The notes under the pieces were generated by a model. The model ran no database searches. It was not told the DNA's origin and was given only the letters and a program-made list of their open reading frames with translations. A program made the translations under genes and the position numbers. From assembly GCA_015146655.1 (NCBI GenBank), contig VKHL01000039.1:1-64000 (forward strand): a stretch of 64,000 nt of DNA, read 5' to 3'. The stretch comes from Ochromonas danica. Lineage: Eukaryota; Sar; Chrysophyceae; Chromulinales; Chromulinaceae. Each line of letters opens with the position of its first letter. Within the stretch, counting starts at the first letter, position 1. Of the stretch, positions 11,385 to 61,061 are shown one piece after another.

Positions 11385-11671
11385 TCGCTATCGCTTATAG
11401 CTTTATTGACTGAGTTTCTTATTGTGTTGAAATTTGACACTTTACATAGTGTAGTTGTCACTGCTAAATTCTGAAGATCTGGCCTATTGGATCGGTCTGG
11501 TCGTTGGAGTCATTGCGAGGGAAGGTAATAATACTGGTTGGGCTTTGATCATCTTTGTCTGAACCATAACGTAATTACAACAACCCTTTGATCGACTTTC
11601 TTCAGACAAAGAAGTCATATTACTTGATCTTTTCTTTATTCATCATTGTCACGCGATTGAAGCGAATAAAA

Positions 11672-13922
11672 ATGTATTTAATGGTGATTTTAGTCGTTTT
11701 CTTCTTGTCCTTGCAGATGACCGTTCAAGGTGCTACAAGTGCTCCCAGGTAGGTTGAGCAACATCCTTCGGTTTTTGCTTGTTAAGACCATCTTTTGATG
11801 GATTCGTTTTGTTGTTATGGATAGTACAAAGCCTACTGTGAAGCCCAGTTTCAAGCCAAGCTTCAAACCCACAGCTAAGCCAAGTGTCAAGCCCAGCAAG
11901 GCTCCCACACTGACTCCCACAAGAAAACCAACGCGAGTACCAAGCATTCAACCTACAGATCGACCAACAGCTCGCCCCACAGGCCGTCCAACAAGTCATC
12001 CGACCGTTGCCCCGACTGCGCGACCTACCTCTAGACCTACCTCTAGACCCACCTTGAGGCCAACAAGTCACCCTTCTCCTCGTCCCTCCGTTGCCCCTAG
12101 TGAGCCTCCAAAGAGTAGCCATTCTTCCAAGAAGAAGCTTGGTCCAGCTTCCACGGCTGGTATTGTCATCTCTGTGGTTGCTGTTGTCTTTTTCATTGGC
12201 CTCTATCTCTATCGCACTCATTATCAATATCTGCGAAGATTTATTAAGGTCAATCTCAAAGTTGATATTGCTAAGTACTCTTTTCTGCGTGATCCAAATG
12301 AAAAGAAATCTACCATTAGTCGAAATAACCTTGATGATGAAGGCGATGATGTTGAACTATTGGCACGTGATCGAAGAACAAGTAGTGATCATGTAAGTAG
12401 TAAAGATACAGGGAATGTAAGTAACCCACTTCATTCATCTGAAAGTTCAAGAGATAGAGAGAATTCAGATGCATCGGCCTATCATAAGATTTCTTCTTTG
12501 GGTATTACCATTGCAGGTTATCTATTAAAGCAAACAACAAACATGCAACACAATTGGGTTAGAAGATGGTTCTTTGTTAAAGATGGTTATTTATATTATT
12601 CTAGAACTCATAATGATGTCATTGCTCCCCCAACAGAAAGTCCTAAAGAAGAAAAAGTTATCACAGCAGTATTAGTAGCAAATTTAATGATTTCAACAGT
12701 GAAAGAAATCAATGAAGTTGAATTTCATATTGTTTCACCAGGTACAAGAGGTGTTGGTACAGGTGGTGGAGTCTATTGTCTTCAAGCAGAAAGTGAACAA
12801 GATGCAAAAGATTGGATTCGTGTAATTCGTCAACAAATAGAAACTTATTTAACCAAGTCTTTACCTTCCAGTAAAAGTCAAAATGATAATAATACTACTC
12901 TAGGAAATCATCATAATAGTAGTGGTAGTAGTAGTCAAATAATGGGAATAGATCTATTGACAGGAGAGAATGTGGACAATAGGAATCCACTCATTCCCAC
13001 TTCTTCGGTTCTCTTCGTGCCTACTGAAGATATGCTAAGTCAATTATATGAAGCGAATCCATATTGTGCAGATTGTCAAAAGCCTCATCCTGAATGGGCT
13101 TCAATTAATCTTTGTATTATGATTTGTATTGATTGTGCTGGTGTTCATCGTAAATTAGGTGCTCATGTTAGTAAAGTTCGTTCTTTGAAATTAGATAAAT
13201 GGTCACTCAATTTGATTGACTTGTTGACTATCATTGGAAATAAGCATGCCAATGAACTTTGGTTAGGTATTCCTAGTGCTCGTAGACCACAGTTATTGGA
13301 CTTGAATGCCTCTTCTAAAGAAAGAGAAGAGTATATTCGTCGTAAATATGAAGATCATGCTTTCTTCTCTGTGAAGAATGTCAATTCTGTGGAAATGCAG
13401 TATAATTTCTTGTTAGCTGCTCGTAGTGGTGATTTAGTCGGATTGATGAAAGCATTAATCTATGGTGTGGATGTTGATTTCACTATTCAATTAATGAAAG
13501 AAGAAGTTAGTGAGAGTCAGTCCAGTGGTGGTTTGTTATCGATGAACATTCTCCCATCTTCCTCTACAGCCCCCACTTCTAAAGACATCTCTAGTATACC
13601 TATTAATAATCATAGCCATACGGACACGATCAAAGGACATAGTGAGATGGTACATAAGCTTCTCTCTACAAAGGGAAGTGTTGAAGAAGTGCCAATAGTG
13701 GCAGGCAATCTCCTGGATATGACAGGTTTAATGCTCAGTTGTCAGCATGGTCATATTTTATGTGTTGAATTGCTATTGTTGTGGCAAGCGAATGTTCCAT
13801 TTCGCAATGCCCAAGGTCTGACTGCACGAGATGTCATAACCTTAACAGAACCAGCACGTAGTGAGATCATGCAGATTCTATCCACCTCCTATGAAGCTAA
13901 CAAGGTTTGGTCGTCTTCATAG
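11672..13922 (+). CDS. Membrane-anchored ArfGAP with PH domain and ankyrin repeats
   Basis: Two exons, 11672-11748 and 11825-13922, intron 76 bp; 724 residues. Exon 1 supplies a signal peptide (MYLMVILVVFFLSLQMTVQG). Residues about 27-125 are KPTxKPS/RPT repeats, a secreted stalk common in heterokont surface proteins. A single membrane span lies near 137-158 (GIVISVVAVVFFIGLYLY). Then come a PH domain (about 255-350, AGYLLKQ...WVRRWFFVKDGYLYY), an ArfGAP zinc finger (about 430-550) with CADC, 16 residues, CIDC and AGVHRKLGAHVSKVRSL including the catalytic Arg, and ankyrin-like repeats to the end. ArfGAPs switch off Arf GTPases during vesicle budding; PH-ArfGAP-ankyrin order is the ACAP/ASAP layout, normally cytosolic. 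The signal peptide plus stalk would make this a type I membrane ArfGAP with its catalytic part in the cytosol. No BAR domain is present. Confidence 0.85.
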
Positions 13923-51981: not shown

Positions 51982-54900
51982 TCACTTACGATACTTGTCC
52001 ACATTCAGCTTCAACCCTCCTCCACTACGACCTGAGATACTCGAGGATGTAGCAGCTGCAGTGCTGCCACTACTAATGGTAGTACTAGCAGGATGTGGCT
52101 GTTGCTCGGCTAGTAGCGCAGCTTTCATGGCAGCCTGTAGCAAAGCTTTCTCCGAGTCAGACAAGCAAGTCAAGGCAGTGCGGAAGGACTCCGCAGCACG
52201 TCTTGCCATGGCAGTCAAGACCTTCCCTCGTACTACTCGCCGCCTCACTACCTCCTGCTCCTCCTGTTGCTGCTTCTCTTGACAGAAGAGAGGCAGAGAG
52301 ACAAGCAAGAGCTGATCGAAGAGAGCTTGTTGCTCAGGTAGAGGCCAAGTGGCAATAAGCAGCAGCCATAACTGAACAACCGCTACCCTCTCCTGCTCCT
52401 CCTCCTGCTGCTGCACCACCTGAGGAGAGGAGGAGAAGGGGTCGAGTAGAGAGGATAGTAGCAAGGGTAGCACGAGGCGGTAGAAAGACAGCCACCTCTC
52501 TGCCGAGGAGGAGATGTGGCTGGACTGTAAGGCTCGACTAGCTCCTTCTAATAGAGCTGCTAGACACCCCTTGCCTCTACCTCGACTAGCTGAGAAGGCA
52601 GTCCACACTTGCACCTGCTACCACGCAGTACACACACAGTGAGACCTGAGTGAAGAGCAAACAGTGAGACTAGTAACGATGAACACATTACCTGATTAGT
52701 GGAGGGAAGGGTTGCTGGAGAAGCAGCAGCAGCAGGAGGAGAGGTGAGAAGGTGGTGGAGGAGGAGGTTCTCCACTAGTATCGCTACCCCGTCGCTTTTC
52801 TGCCGCACTACCTTGGGTAACAACTGCCACATGAAGGAGCGAATGCGCTGGAAAAGGGGCAGGAGGAGGTTGTCTGGGTAGGTAGTGGGTAGGAGGGGTA
52901 ACTGCGATAGTGTTTGTCCAGTGCGAGTGACGACCTCTACCTGCTGCACCTCCTCGGAGGAAGTCTGTAGAGTAGCCACAGTGAAGGCTAGCCAAGAGAG
53001 ACGAAGTGTATAGTCTAGCATTTCAATAGGAGTAGAGGCAGTGCTAGAGGTAGCAGTAGTAGGAGCGGGAGGAGAGAGGTAGGGTAGCCATAGTCTAACA
53101 CAAGCACAGGCCAGAGTGACAGAACAGAGAGCCTTCTTCTTCTCTACCAGCACATGCAGACCCGCAACATCCACTAGTCTCACTACCCTTCCTCCTTCTA
53201 TCTCAGCAACTACTTCCTCAGAGAAGACTGCAGGGACTAGCAGGTGACTCAGTCGACTGAGAGAAGAGAAAAAGGAAGGAGAGGTAGCAGTCTCAACGGG
53301 GAAGACTTGACGAAGACGTGCCCAGAGGGTAGCCAGACCCACTGCTACCTCCTCCTGCTCCTCCTGCTGCTGCTTCAGCTTCAAGATGGTAGTAGCTAGT
53401 AGACTATCGAGTAGCTGTAGCCAGGTAGTAAAAGGAATGTTGTCTGCACCTCGTAGGCTGATCTCAAGTAAGACCTTTACTAGCACTTTCAACGACTGGA
53501 CAGGATGATGGTAGGAGGAGGAGGAGGAGGAGGAGAGGTCTGTTAGTGCTTGTGTGGCTAGCAGATAGACTAGCTGCACTACCTCAGAGGTGGCCTGGGT
53601 AGGAGTAGCAGGGTAGGAGGAGATCAAGGCATGGAGAAGAGGTAGTGCAGTCTCTTGCACTAGCACTGACTTCTCCTCTGAACTACTATCACTAGTATTA
53701 CTATCACTAGTGTTAGTATTAGGCAGTGTTGGGTGTAGTATGTGTAGTATAGAGAGTAATAGATGTGTCCAGTGATCTTTCAACACTGACAGAGACTCTT
53801 TAAACAAACTACCTATCTCTCCTCTAACATTACTATTAGCAGTAGTAATGGGGTAGAGGAGTCTAGCCAGCTGTGTGAGGTAGACGACCTTTTCTCTCTC
53901 TACCACTATTTCTCCATAGTCCCTCCTCCTCCTGCTACCAGCACCACCACCACCACTACTAGTGTCATTAGATGGTAGTGGTAGTTGATCTACCTTATTG
54001 TTAGAGAGCAGCAGAGTAGAGGAAGCAAAGGTCTGGAAAGGTCGCAGCACTCTTCTAACCAGAAGGCTATCTGTTAGCAACTCTCCCTCTACCAAGCCTA
54101 GCAACATCTCACTCGAGGCTGACAATAATACTGGATGGTAGCGTAATGCCAGGGTAGTTCGAAGAACACCTAGAATTTGAGAGAGGTACTGTACCAATAT
54201 CTTACCCTCCGCTCCTCCTGCTGCTACTGCCCTGCTAGTCTTCATTATAGAGCGAAGGTCTACATTAGAACCATGTAGCATGACTTCATGACTAATAGCA
54301 ATATTGTCTGTATGGTCAGGATCGAGAGTTTCGAGGTAGTGGGAGACGAGGAGGTGAAGGAGGAGGGTAGCCTCTGTCTGTAGAGGTCGTACTACCTCGT
54401 CACGGGTAGTCATGGTAGCGCATGCACAAGCTAAGTTAACCATGTCCGTGAGGTAGAGGCTGATTGGACAAGGTACAGCAAGTAGCTGCTTCTCTGTCAA
54501 GTTAACAGAGATCACCCCTCCTCCTGCTGCTACCAGAGTAGCATGGGTAGTACTGGTAGAACGAGAAGAGAGTTGTACGAGGTGCTGTTGGAGGTGGTAT
54601 CGAGCGAGGAAGAGCTCTAGTTTAGCGGGGTAGGTGGCAGAGTGGGGGTAGGCATAGCGTGCTAGCAACTTCCTCACTAGCGCTACCATCTCCGCCTTGA
54701 AGGCTAAGGGCCAGGCCAACACTTGCGATGTCATCGAGACTTCTCGATAGTGCACAAGGAAAGCACGCACACTGTCTACACGATAGGTAGGCTCTACTGC
54801 TGCAGCCTTCTTAGCACCTCCTCCTTCTCCTGCTGCAACCTCCTCCTCCTCCTCATCATCCCGATCCTGCGAGATCTCATCATTACTACTCGTTGTAGTA

Positions 54901-57900
54901 ACAGCAGGGGCAGCAGTAGCTACCCCTCTCTGCAGGTCGAGGATGATGGAGCGAGCGTGTAGCAGCCAGTAGGGCAGGCGTTGCGGTAGATCGGCTACTA
55001 CCTCCTGCTCCACCAGACTAGCCAGAGCCTGCCAACTCTTGTACAAGACACGAGCTACCCACCGCTCTGCAGGTTGTAGATGGAAGTGGTCGTACTTCAA
55101 GTCCAGGCCTAGCGAGGTGGTGGGGCAGGAGGAGGAGGAGGCGAGGCAGTGGCGAGGTAGTTGTAGGATCACCTCACTGAAGTCATGCTGGAGAATGATC
55201 TGCGGGAAAGAGTGAAGCAGAAGAAGGAAGATATCTAACGCAGCATCTAATGCTACTAACCCTCCTCCTCCTGCAGCTCCTACTCCTCCTCCTCCTACCA
55301 TGACAAAGCTATCAAATACCTTCTTAACCTCACTACATAGGAAGGTACTCCATTGTCCTTTCTGATCATAACGAGCACATAGCAGTAGTCCTCGATAGTA
55401 TTCATTCCACAGCACTTCTACCGCGGGTGAGAGTGGAGCAGCAGGAGAAGGAGTCTGTGCACCTAGTGATGTACAGTGTAGAACCACTTGATGCATGAGT
55501 CTCTGAGCTGTGTTGATCTTAGCCCAGGATAGGTCTGCATAGAAGGCCAAGGCTAGTGCTCGAGCGAGGAGGTGAAGGAGGTGCTGGAGCAGGAGGAGGC
55601 TGTCTTCGGTTACATTGAGACTTGCCAAGGCGATGGTCACACCTTGTATTATACCTTCAAATAGGTCCGATACTCCTTCTTGATCTCCTGCGAAGATGGG
55701 AGGTGGTGCAGGAGGGTAGGTGGTAGTGGAGGAGGGTAGCTGCGCTTGGCAGATGGTAGCCAAGGCAGTGACAATTGACACCAAGAAGACAGCAGAGCTC
55801 TGGCCATCCGCTTTCTGAAGACTGTCTAGTAGAGTCTATAGCACACAGACAGCACACACATACCATACAAACACAGCACACAGTCAGTCAAAGGGATTGA
55901 TTAGCCAAATCATCATCATCATCATCATTATCATTATCATCATCTTTATTATCAACAACAAGTGAGTAGTGTAGTTAGTGTTGCTAGTAACCTACCAGTT
56001 GTAGCAAAGCTCGTTGATCACTATCTTTCGAAGCCTTCCACAGTCCTCCCAGTGCTAACAGGTATCCCGCATTGTCAGCAGTCTGACTGCTACCACTGCC
56101 TCCTGTCATCGTCATTGTCATGGTAGGTCTCTTCTTCCCATAACGAGAAAGTAGAAGACTGCGAATACGACCTGCTACAGTCGTCGCTACCGTGGATCCT
56201 TTCCATTTCATCGCGAAGCAGGCTAAAGTCTGTGCTACTTCAAGGTGTAGTGCAAAGGTCGCCCCCGAGGATGTGCTGAGGGAGGAGGAGGAGAGGATAG
56301 CAGCACTGGCTACACTTGTCACAGACAAGGCCGTGACATTGGGAGATGATGTTGCACTACTACTACTACCACTACCTGAAGCAGGAAGTGTTCCTCCTCC
56401 ACTACTACCTACAGTAGAAGCAGTGGTAGTAGCAGCAGGAGGAGGAGGGGTAGTGGTGGTAGCAGTAGGCAAGGTGAAGGCTAGCGATGAAGCAGCGGGT
56501 ATTAAGGCAGAGGCAGGGAGTGTCTGTGCTAGCAGGCTGTAGAGAAGGTCTACCAGGCTCTGTCTCCAGGCATAGGCTAGATCGAAGAACTCTCCCTCGT
56601 GCACAGGGTAGTGCTGCACGATCGCCTTGAGGGTAACCAGAGTATTGACAAGCACGATCTGCTGGCGTTTCTCTTTCTTACGTCGTTCTTCATCAGAGGT
56701 GAAGAGAGAGAGGGACTTGGTAGAGAGACGACTGCTAGTAGAGGAGGAGGAGTAGAGTTGGCTGGTCGCCTGAGCTAGTAGCTGCACTGCCTTGTCTTGA
56801 TAGTCATTGGATTGGAAAGGAAAGCTCCTTGCTAGAAGATGGATAGCGACATCTAAAGTACGTCGATCCATCATAGCCGAGGAGGAGCAGCAGGATGTGG
56901 TGATAGTGGTGGTGGTGGTGGAGGAGGAGGGTAGTCGATATAGCGACACCATCTTCTCATCTTCAAAGAGCGTCTGATAGACTTCATACTCTTTCCTAGG
57001 CAAGGGATAGACTAATCCTTCCACTTTCAACAGGAAGAGTTCAGCGGGACAGACCCACTGTCCTACCCACTCTTCCTCCTCCTCCTCCTGCTGCATTACC
57101 TTACCTCTCCCCGACCAACTACATTGTAAGCCACTGGCTAGCCCATCTCTCAATACTCGCAGTGCCTCGACGAAGAGTGGCGGGGGGATGAGGGCAGGGG
57201 GTAGAAGGGTAACACAGCCCAGCAGCAGGCAGTGGCAGCTCTGCAGACGAGTCTGACCTCGATAGAGAGGCTGGTACCGATGCTTGAACAGATGGAATGC
57301 TGTCTCAAGATGTTGGAGGAGGAACACCTCCTCACCTCTACCCTCGCCTCCTGGTACCTCGGTACCCAGAGAAGAGGAGGAAGTTAGCAGTGCTCGGATG
57401 ACAAGGAGTCCTGCCTCCACGAACATCATCTCATAGAGAGCATCATCTGCTGCAGGCGTAGCAGCAGCAGGAGCAGGAGGAGGGAATAGCTCTTTGCTAC
57501 TCAGACCCGATGACGCCGTGAGCAGAACATTGTTCGCCGTGGCGATGGAAGAGAAGAGTGAGGAGAGGTTAGTTAGTGCTAGCTCTGTGGTGGAGGAGGA
57601 GGAGGTGTGAGGCAGTGCAGAGGCTAGCAGCCAGGCACCCGCTCGATGAATAGAGCAGAGCACATTCAAAGGCAACTGCTTCCTACTAGAGGAAGGTTGC
57701 GACTGAGAACCTCTTCTACCCTTCTCACTCACTGCACAAGCAGGAGAGGTAGTCGCCAGGCAGTCCATCATCTCCAAGGCCACTGCACAACAATCTTCTA
57801 TCACACGCGAAGACAATTCACTCGTAGTGCTAGTAGTGGATGTAGTAGAGGTAGGAGGTGCGATGAGGTGTTTGAGCAAGGAGGTGGCGAGGTAGACGTG

Positions 57901-59805
57901 GCCGTGTATGAAATACAGTCTCTGTAACATCTCTCCTTCCTCTTCTCTATTCACTGAGAAGCTCATTCGACGTGATGACATCGTCATATTCATACCGGTA
58001 GCACTACTACCAGCTACCTTGCCTGACGTACTACTACTACCAATGGTAGTAGCAGCAGGAGGAACTGCCCCCTCCATAATCTCTTCCTCCACACCACTAT
58101 TGCCTTCTAAGATCTCTCTCAACAGCTTCCTCAAGAGCAGCACAGCTTGGCTAGCTAGCACGTTGCCTAGGCCTTCTACCTCTTTGGCTAGCCTCACCAC
58201 TGCCTGGACTGCAGCCTGGCGAACCATAAAGGAAGGATGTCTCAAGAAGCGCTGAGACAGACCTAGCACCTCCTCCTCTACAGCTACAGCAGTAGCACCA
58301 AGAAGAGAGAGGAGGTGGTCGATAGCTTGCAGAGAGATGAGAACCTCTCCTTCCCCTCGCCCTCCTCCTCCTGCTGCTCCACCACTACCACCTCCTACCT
58401 CTACTGCTGAACACAATCGACAAAACTCACTTGTTAGAGCAAGGAGTTGATTCTCTGAGAGATGGCCAGCACAGAAAATGACAGCACGAAGAAGTGCTGA
58501 GAGACGAGCTTGGCCCACTACCTGCTCCTCCCACCCTCCTCCTCCTGCTACCCCCTCTTGTGCTAGTAGCAAGAAAGCAGAGGGAATACTCTCTAACTCT
58601 TCTAAGGTAATCTCAGGGATGACTTGTTGGATAAAGAATCCCCACACTAAGAGATAGCCTGCCCTCAAGTTACTAGCCGCACCTCCTCCTCCACCTCCCT
58701 GCGCACCTTTGCCTACCACAAGCTTCAACAAGTTGTCCACGATCGTCTTGAAATCATTGACTTCCTCCATTAACGTCTTCTTCGCAGAGGTTAGCTTAGT
58801 CAAAGCAGCTAGGCGACTAGCCGTTGACATGGTAGTAGCAGCAGGAGGAGCAGATCCTCCTCCTGCTCCACCACCCGAGGGTAGTTTACTGTCATCTCCT
58901 CGAGCAGCACCGATCTTGGACAGCTCCATCTTCTCCTGGTAGGCATGGCAAAGCACCTGGTAGAGCGTAGCCATCGCTCGAGCAGCTGTGCGCTGCACTA
59001 CCGCATCCTCATCTTCTAGCCCCCGCACTAGGAGAGGTAGCACACTGTCTAGACTATGACCACGTCTAGCAAGACCATCGAGAAGGAAGGCGGCTTGACC
59101 TCTCATCTCTGCAGAACGATCATAAATAATCTTCGAGGCGATTTTCAACACTTCCTGCAAGGTCTCTAAGGGTAGAGCAGGAGGAGGAGGAGGAGCACTA
59201 CTACTACCACTGGTACCAGCAGGAGGGTTGACTAGGCAGGCCAAGATCTTCATGGCTGCTAGCCGCAGAGGTTGTTCAGCCATGCGGACGGCTTTGTTCA
59301 CAATGACGAGACAGTCTGTCTGCAGACCTACCCCTAAGTCTGCGCTACGATAAAGTAGCAAATCATGTAGCACTCCAAGACTCAGCTCTTTGCCTGGTAA
59401 AGTGACTAGCTTGTGCTGGAAGATGGAAGCCATGGACTGGAAGAGAGACCGTGTGAGATAGCCTGGAGAGGTGGTGGACAGAAGGAGAAGAATACGTCGA
59501 AGTAATACAAGGAAAGATCGTGTGAGATGAACTTTCTTCCCCAGTGCTACTTCCTCAAAGAAAGGCAAAGCAGTGGGATTCTCTTGCAGGAAGAGAGAGC
59601 AGGAGGAGGAAGAGGTCAGAGCATCCTCCAGGTCCATGAGTCTTTCTAAGATAATCTTGTTTGAAATGGAACTATCCACTTTCGTTGTTGAAGAAGAAGT
59701 TGCGGAAGAAGTTGTAGTAGTGGAGGAAGAAGAAGAAGAAGAGGACGTATCCAGACATGCTTTCAGTTTTTGGAAGCATTCCATGGAATTAGACGAGGAA
59801 GCCAT
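51982..59805 (-). CDS. HEATR5/LAA1-like giant HEAT-repeat protein
   Basis: Three exons: 59805-55996, 55835-52692 and 52614-51982, introns of 160 and 77 bp, all phase 0; 2528 residues. The last acceptor is a tandem TAGCAG, so one extra Gln may be made. The N-terminal 500 residues are HEAT-like helices matching the HEATR5B/Laa1 plan: KIIYDRSAEMRGQAAFLLDG, EDEDAVVQRTAARAMATLYQ. Many inserts are Ser, Ala/Gly or Thr runs coded by triplets, which explain the length over the usual 2000. In yeast and animals this protein helps AP-1 clathrin adaptors at the trans-Golgi. The C-terminal third is weakly conserved by eye. Start ATG 59805. The one-gene model rests on frame-keeping joins and no internal start. 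Confidence 0.75.
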
Positions 59806-61061
59806 GACTGAATTCACTGACTCTGTCTGCCTGTCTGTCTGTCTCTTTGTCAGTCTGTGTGTCCCTCTATTTCAGTCCCTCTATAGGCAATGCTGGGACA
59901 AGAAGACAAGACACTTCTAGGAGATAGAATTACAGAATGAGGATGATCTTAAATAGACGAAGAGGAATGATATGGTATTCTTCTATCTTTCAGCCTATTA
60001 GAAACCTTTTATTTTACTATCTTTTTCTTTTTCTTGTCTTTCGTTTGGATGATAGGACAAGCAAAGCTATCCATTGTCCCAATCAAGGATGCGCCAGAGT
60101 AAGTTATTATTAGGATGCGTGGACTAGCTCTTTTCCCAAGCGATTATTGTGATGCGTGCTCAGCATATAACAACGGATTCAAAGACAGACAAAAGTCTGA
60201 GGCAACCAAAATGGTCTAAGGCTTAAACGCCCATTGTTAGGTTTTGACCTAGTAACCCTTTGAATTAGTCTGCGGTCAAGCATCTTTTCCAAGTGTTATG
60301 AGGTTGGCTAGGTTTTAACTCAAGAACTCGAGGAAACTTACCTTAATAGTTTCGATTCTCTGATATCTTCTTATTATCTTCTTACAGTAGTCTAAGGCAT
60401 GTTATTACTCTCCACACTGTGGTGTAAGGCATTGTTAATTATCTTGAAGACGTTCCGATTACGATTATTGTAATGCGTGGGAGCCTGCAACGCAGCAGAA
60501 AGACAGCGCCAGCACCAAAGCCGCTGGCACACACAACGGCGGGGCATCAGCAACAGCACAGCACAGCAGCAGGAGCAGCTCGACAGCAGAGCAGAAAACA
60601 GAAGAGCACGAAGAGGGACCTAAAGTCCATCTCCATTGATCAATTGATCTTGCACCTTATCTCTTCTACTTTCTTTTATAACCGAGTTCTTAATACCTTT
60701 GTGGCGTAGGATACGGTGTTAAATTGGAATTGGTAAGTGTGAAATATTGTTAATCTCCTCATGGAGAATTAGCAGGGAGACTACCGTTATGTAGACTCAC
60801 ACACAGTGTCTTGCTAACGTGGGAGGGACTAATTCTCCCCCTTATCATACTATACCCTTATTATATAACTTGTTTTCACTTATTACATTGATTATTAGTC
60901 TTTCCTTGTTATTGAGGGTTCTACACGCCACACACTAATTCCGTGTTCTCACACCTCTTTCTGTCAACATAGGATTGCGTTAAACACCACGATATCAAAT
61001 TTCCAGAAGGCACTGTAATTTATTGAAAAAGATTATTGAGCTATTGCAGAGATTGTAAATC
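59806..61061. promoter_or_regulatory. Long divergent region HEATR5 / demethylase
   Basis: 1256 bp. Three copies of a TTATTGTRATGCGTG-type element: 60104-60121 (variant TTATTATTAGGATGCGTG), 60142-60158, 60463-60479. A CAG/GCA-rich island at 60476-60620 differs in composition from its flanks. An inverted pair GGAGAATTAG (60763-60772) / CTAATTCTCC (60829-60838) is seen. A CTGTCTGT tract lies at 59825-59850. No protein gene is supported; a 5' UTR exon of the demethylase is possible. Confidence 0.5.

Follow-up and report, generated by a model that had tools for sequence, protein, structure and literature searches.

A predicted single-pass membrane Arf GAP with a basic Pro-Thr/Ser stalk, encoded in one continuous reading frame

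Introduction

What does an Arf GAP do when it is unable to leave its membrane? The Arf GAPs that carry a PH-ArfGAP-ankyrin (PZA) unit are thought of as recruited enzymes, and the relative share of place and of PH-driven activation in their action is debated. A natural Arf GAP fixed by its own membrane span would separate place from activation. The gene described here raises this question. Its catalytic unit has apparently been grafted onto a surface-anchor gene of the lineage's own, likely donor relatives of which persist in the same genome. The gene occupies positions 11672..13922 on the plus strand of the window, by which is meant the whole 64,000-nucleotide stretch of DNA that was analyzed (bases 1-64000 of contig C39, in an assembly of 31.19 Mb and 337 contigs). 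Introns and gene content identify the source as a eukaryote. The gene's 724-residue product is defined by the reading frame, Pfam matches and codon bias. The membrane-anchored ArfGAP layout is known from this one gene in one genome, and the gene models are predicted.

Gene structure and reading frame

Splicing of 11672-11748 (77 bp) to 11825-13922 (2098 bp) joins the exons in phase 2 and yields a frame of 724 codons closed by a stop, exactly as the first-pass annotation had placed them. An in-frame TAA lies upstream of exon 1, at 11567. Exon 1 (11672..11748, plus strand) encodes a signal-peptide-like start, MYLMVILVVFFLSLQMTVQG followed by ATSAPS, for which hydropathy, relatives, shuffles and codon bias all speak, and a putative cleavage site can be placed by eye after G20 under the -3,-1 rule. 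The intron (11749..11824, plus strand) is a 76-bp GT-AG intron in phase 2 that splits a Ser codon into AG and T, and four other genes have introns of this phase in the corresponding place. Introns of ArfGAP relatives in this genome, as read by eye, are also GT-AG and run roughly 70-110 bp, which makes 76 bp a usual length in this genome.

The frame from the stalk to the ankyrin region is open across 707 codons. Codon usage was scored in nine coding segments (exon 1, the stalk, the span, two halves of the linker, the PH domain, the next linker, the ArfGAP domain and the ankyrin region), with one training set made of nine other long frames in the window and another of six frames with Pfam matches. 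With both training sets, the frame of the gene scored highest among the six possible frames in all nine segments, linker included. In the intron segment, unlike the coding segments, the best frame was on the minus strand. The earlier proposal of one gene, running in a single frame from the signal-peptide-like exon to the ankyrin region, is therefore sustained by codon bias in every segment. The possibilities that two genes were joined by accident or that the sequence is misassembled were considered and rejected because frame and codon bias are continuous across the junction.

The evidence for exon 1 can be considered separately. When the 330 upstream bases were shuffled with dinucleotides preserved, none of 2000 shuffles matched the real spliced hydrophobic start, while 149 gave a model of any kind; of about 3000 random positions in the window, however, 15 reached the strength of the real start. 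Taken alone, these chance tests make a fair case for exon 1, and the like gene structure in four other genes is stronger evidence. Two possibilities raised in the first-pass annotation, that the stalk and the ArfGAP domain belong to separate transcripts or that no transcript joins 11748 to 11825, appear unlikely on sequence grounds, because the codon bias crosses the junction and the intron recurs in those four genes. An in-frame ATG is also present at 11817, inside the intron, and an unspliced form starting there would carry no signal peptide.

The anchor module

Two hydrophobic peaks, at residues 3-21 (Kyte-Doolittle 2.04) and 136-154 (2.51), flank a clear match to the PT disordered repeat of Pfam (PF04886, 50.9 bits), and this bears out the signal peptide, KPT stalk and single span that had been described from the sequence. 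The stalk (residues 26-127, 11825..12128 in exon 2, plus strand) is a basic Pro-Thr/Ser repeat by both its PF04886 match and its composition. The 107 residues from 21 to 127 include 9 Lys, 10 Arg and 3 His with only 1 Asp and 1 Glu, and contain 24 P(T/S) units. These basic residues are ordered, with a Lys zone toward the N terminus and an Arg zone nearer the membrane (permutation p 0.0034). The Pfam scan of the product shows the PT repeat alone outside the membrane and no folded ectodomain.

The span, TAGIVISVVAVVFFIGLYL (residues 136-154, 12153..12209, plus strand), is defined by hydropathy and by alignment to other spans. It has basic residues on both sides, with KKK before it and RTHYQYLRR after it. 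Because the KKK is on the lumenal side, directly next to the span, the orientation rests on the signal peptide. A 99-residue linker (12210..12506, plus strand) follows in the same reading frame, as codon bias indicates, and connects the span to the PH domain.

The catalytic unit

The PH domain spans residues 254-364 (12507..12839, plus strand; PF00169, 47.3 bits), and the ArfGAP domain spans residues 433-541 (13044..13370, plus strand; PF01412, 118.5 bits) and has relatives among solved structures. The finger is a C-x2-C-x16-C-x2-C motif at residues 440-463, and both it and the Arg at 468 are intact (13065-13151, plus strand). We take the catalytic Arg position to be five residues past the last Cys of an ArfGAP finger, and Arg468 fits this position.

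The ankyrin region (13395..13826, plus strand) comprises one repeat recognized by eye (residues 550-578), an insert, and Ank and Ank_2 matches within residues 629-693. The Ank match (PF00023, residues 658-683) passes narrowly, with 22.4 bits against a cut-off of 21.1, and the Ank_2 match, at 19.5 bits, is under its cut-off of 27.3, so the repeats are weakly supported by sequence; the region also has local matches to ankyrin chains among solved structures. Of the catalytic unit as first annotated, then, the PH domain and the intact ArfGAP finger with its catalytic Arg stand, and the ankyrin repeats are weak. The best solved relatives of the whole PH-ArfGAP-ankyrin part are SMAP1-like (86.7 bits), ACAP1 (85.4 bits) and PYK2-associated protein beta (83.4 bits). 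A structure predicted for residues 219-724 (starting at 12402) as a single sequence reached a mean pLDDT of 33.5 and was set aside. No BAR family occurs among the Pfam matches of the product up to an E value of 1. A BAR_3 profile search of the whole genome was silent, and its controls were equally silent, so this search carries no weight on whether BAR domains are absent.

Relatives of the stalk in the same genome

A genome search with the stalk and span, in which 150 of 1120 candidates were scored, gave 266 matches, and the matches listed lie mostly within long PT-repeat frames. Five stretches were inspected. Three of them hold genes of the same build, four in number (C99, C92a, C92b and C50, named for their contigs), and the other two, on C43 and C13, hold other PT proteins. 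The four predicted models each begin with a hydrophobic first exon, followed by a short phase-2 intron (80, 72, 67 and 78 bp, respectively, compared with 76 bp in the ArfGAP gene) and a KPT stalk, C92b being modeled in part. The signal-peptide-like exon and short intron that had been proposed for the ArfGAP gene thus have counterparts in these four genes. Two of them, C99 and C50, need a spliced first exon, because no ATG is present in the open frame that precedes their stalks.

C99, C92a and C50 were modeled through the span. All three have a Lys/Ser patch, as the ArfGAP gene product does, and an AGIVIG-type span, to which the span of that product may be related; they stop at short acidic tails, whereas the ArfGAP gene product continues for 570 residues with its PH, ArfGAP and ankyrin regions. 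Residues 1-187 of the product are 49.5, 44.1 and 44.8% identical to C99, C92a and C50 over 184, 177 and 174 positions, values that are inflated in the stalk by repeat composition, of which the phase and place of the intron, the span and the Lys-then-Arg order are independent. The permutation p values for the Lys-then-Arg order are 0.0068 in C99, 0.0004 in C50 and 0.10 in C92a.

With the combined stalk and span as query, the match to C99 covers query residues 43-130 and extends into the span (51%). The two spans are 37% identical in a short alignment and have AGIVI in common. When the span and juxtamembrane part of the ArfGAP gene were used as the query, the gene found itself alone in the genome at E<=1. 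The span and tail of C99 gave at least 15 matches at E<=0.1, and the ArfGAP gene is absent among the matches listed. Both results weigh against a close relationship of the spans.

Other PT proteins of this genome differ from the ArfGAP gene stalk. With 150 of 2639 candidates scored, the top PT matches listed lie in long frames, mostly of more than 1000 residues, while the ArfGAP stalk is short and strongly basic; the PT proteins on C13 and C43 are of a Gln/Ala/Ser type. A LSGGAIAGIVIG-type membrane span (L060-L067) recurs on single-pass proteins with very different ectodomains, and there are 80 instances of the codon pattern that encodes AGI(I/V/M)I, compared with 18 of the reversed control.

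Other ArfGAP and PH loci in the genome

A search of the genome for the ArfGap family gave 11 matches at nine loci. At the eight loci other than the stalked gene, ten open frames were scanned with Pfam (for C14 and C8, a downstream frame only), so extra domains may be present in exons farther upstream. Some of these loci are presumably SMAP-, ArfGAP1- or AGFG-like. The scanned frames of the loci on C76, C111, C8, C69 and C211 contain no further Pfam domains. There are 83 PH matches in the genome, in an exon-by-exon search that PH domains split by introns could escape, and the only one with an ArfGAP match less than 7 kb away is the one in the stalked ArfGAP gene. The next nearest PH matches are in another gene of C39, at 20435 (~7.1 kb), and on C111 (~7.3 kb), both on the other strand.

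Domain partners of other kinds were found at three loci. On contig C26 (L051:4471-8499, plus strand), a 1343-residue frame combines an ArfGAP domain with uDENN-DENN-dDENN domains and a sub-threshold IQ match. Its ArfGAP finger has a wider spacing (20 residues) and a His in the catalytic Arg position (CASVHHK), and the protein may combine an inactive GAP with a unit of the Rab GEF type. On contig C17 (L046:4167-4874, minus strand), a compact frame of 236 residues encodes an ArfGAP domain and then a FYVE finger, a pairing that we do not know from animals or yeast. On contig C14 (L047:3037-4629, minus strand), a frame that matches PDZ lies downstream of an ArfGAP exon, and the two are probably parts of one gene.

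The genome also contains a match to the silicon-transporter family on contig C2 (L068:235-1365, minus strand), which scores 82.1 bits where the cut-off is 26.8; in the genome search 1 of 14 controls also matched, below the cut-off. Together with the many PT matches, this gene makes it plausible that the organism is a silica- or wall-forming stramenopile.

Comparison with known Arf GAPs

The stalked product has the same order of PH domain, ArfGAP finger and ankyrin region (weak in this product) as the PZA Arf GAPs (ASAP, ACAP, ARAP and AGAP), and the catalytic Arg is present in both. Its solved relatives include the PZA-type ACAP1 and PYK2-associated protein beta, while the top relative, SMAP1-like, lies outside the PZA group. 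The BAR, SH3, RhoGAP or other extra domains of the PZA groups were not detected here by Pfam, and a signal peptide, a stalk and a span are found instead.

TBC1D20, a GAP for Rab1, is a membrane-spanning GAP of another small GTPase. Like the stalked ArfGAP, it is held in the membrane by its own span; the GTPase family and the fold are different. We know of no membrane GAP of the TBC1D20 kind with an ectodomain made of a signal peptide and a stalk.

In the open-licence literature, which leaves out most subscription papers, no description of a transmembrane Arf GAP was found among the matches listed, in keeping with the first-pass statement that no ArfGAP of this layout has been described. The phrase "transmembrane ArfGAP" occurs in no paper of that literature, and none of the matches listed for "ArfGAP" with "type I transmembrane" has a direct phrase for a transmembrane ArfGAP. 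A review devoted to human Arf GAPs likewise does not use the word transmembrane in its main text (PMC6358971).

Searches for relatives gave 17 pattern stretches in viral contigs and 13 in prokaryotic contigs, and none in either set was confirmed; because these collections are viral and prokaryotic, this absence means little. Undescribed relatives may well exist, for example among heterokont predicted proteins.

Proposed origin and mechanism

The most likely account of this layout is a fusion. Because its anchor module resembles three genes that end in short acidic tails, the ArfGAP gene looks like a fusion of that module to a catalytic unit. It is probable that a KPT-stalk gene for a single-pass membrane anchor was joined to a PZA unit, and that the anchor serves to localize the catalytic unit. 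From the arrangement of the predicted product we infer this fusion history, a type I topology, GAP activity, a place for that activity, and an anchor that acts as a localizer rather than a sensor. The reading of the anchor as a tether is well supported by the sequence features described above.

The joining would have occurred probably at or past the span, and the anchor would now occupy the position where ACAPs and ASAPs have their BAR domain. The product would enter the membrane co-translationally, its basic stalk facing the lumen or the outside and its PZA unit reaching into the cytosol on the linker. It would then travel the secretory pathway to whichever membrane the KPT proteins have, at the cell surface or on a wall-forming vesicle, where the PZA unit would hydrolyze Arf-GTP. 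Activity would be set by contact of the PH domain with phosphoinositide and Arf, and place would be set by the span, not by BAR-type recruitment.

Two described modes of action bear on this proposal. For Dictyostelium ACAP-A/B, one report describes a truncated PH-ArfGAP-Ank form as sufficient for Arf GAP activity in vitro (PMC2797641), and another describes the PH domain of ASAP1 as acting directly on Arf at the membrane (PMC12485133). Both modes would be workable on a span with a 99-residue linker, so the most likely arrangement would be one in which the anchor fixes place and the PH domain sets activity.

Alternative readings

The first-pass annotation had gone further and proposed that the protein couples an outside or lumenal signal to Arf inactivation. 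Such a true receptor, in which the stalk would sense contact with a wall, matrix or mineral and change the PZA unit and local Arf-GTP turnover, would suit the apparent type I layout, the long basic ectodomain and the complete catalytic unit inside, and the silicon-transporter-family gene and many PT-repeat matches make a polyanion- or mineral-facing surface plausible. Pfam, however, finds no folded ligand domain outside the membrane, where there is only a PT repeat, and three modeled proteins with short tails have a similar ectodomain and span. Both findings suggest that the ectodomain is a module for anchorage or the cell surface and not a dedicated sensor. The coupling claim is not upheld by these observations, and we consider a receptor unlikely. 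The boldest version, in which the first integral-membrane Arf GAP would be a surface or wall-vesicle receptor whose cationic stalk binds a polyanionic wall or silica matrix and ties Arf-GTP turnover to wall sites, is a long shot; if true, vesicle delivery or retrieval would be tied, by way of that turnover, to the places of wall deposition, and the protein may have succeeded a BAR-type ancestor in the organism's sole PH-ArfGAP-ankyrin post.

Two further readings retain the catalytic unit and differ in how the N-terminal part is used. The locus could make two products, the anchored form and a soluble PH-ArfGAP-Ank protein from an internal start or promoter that does an ordinary ACAP job. This is the sole ArfGAP locus found with an adjoining PH match, which may leave an ordinary soluble role to be filled, and the ATG in the intron is in frame with exon 2. 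The single uninterrupted frame and the coding bias through the stalk, span and linker nevertheless weigh against this idea, and reading of the frame gave nothing positive for a second start; we regard it as unlikely too. It is very unlikely that the hydrophobic segments are used otherwise, with the span acting as a signal anchor if exon 1 is not used, or with the product sent to an unexpected destination, such that the GAP would not simply be cytosolic. The Lys/Arg-rich side does lie N-terminal of the span, and an unspliced reading from 11817 is possible, but four other genes show a signal-peptide-like exon and the same intron phase, and splicing is needed in C99 and C50, where the frames above the stalk have no ATG.

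Another feature of the window

Elsewhere in the window, two long frames on the minus strand (52563-59871) have matches to HEAT and Laa1/Sip1/HEATR5 repeats. The G+C content of this region is 0.50-0.53, compared with ~0.40 on its flanks.
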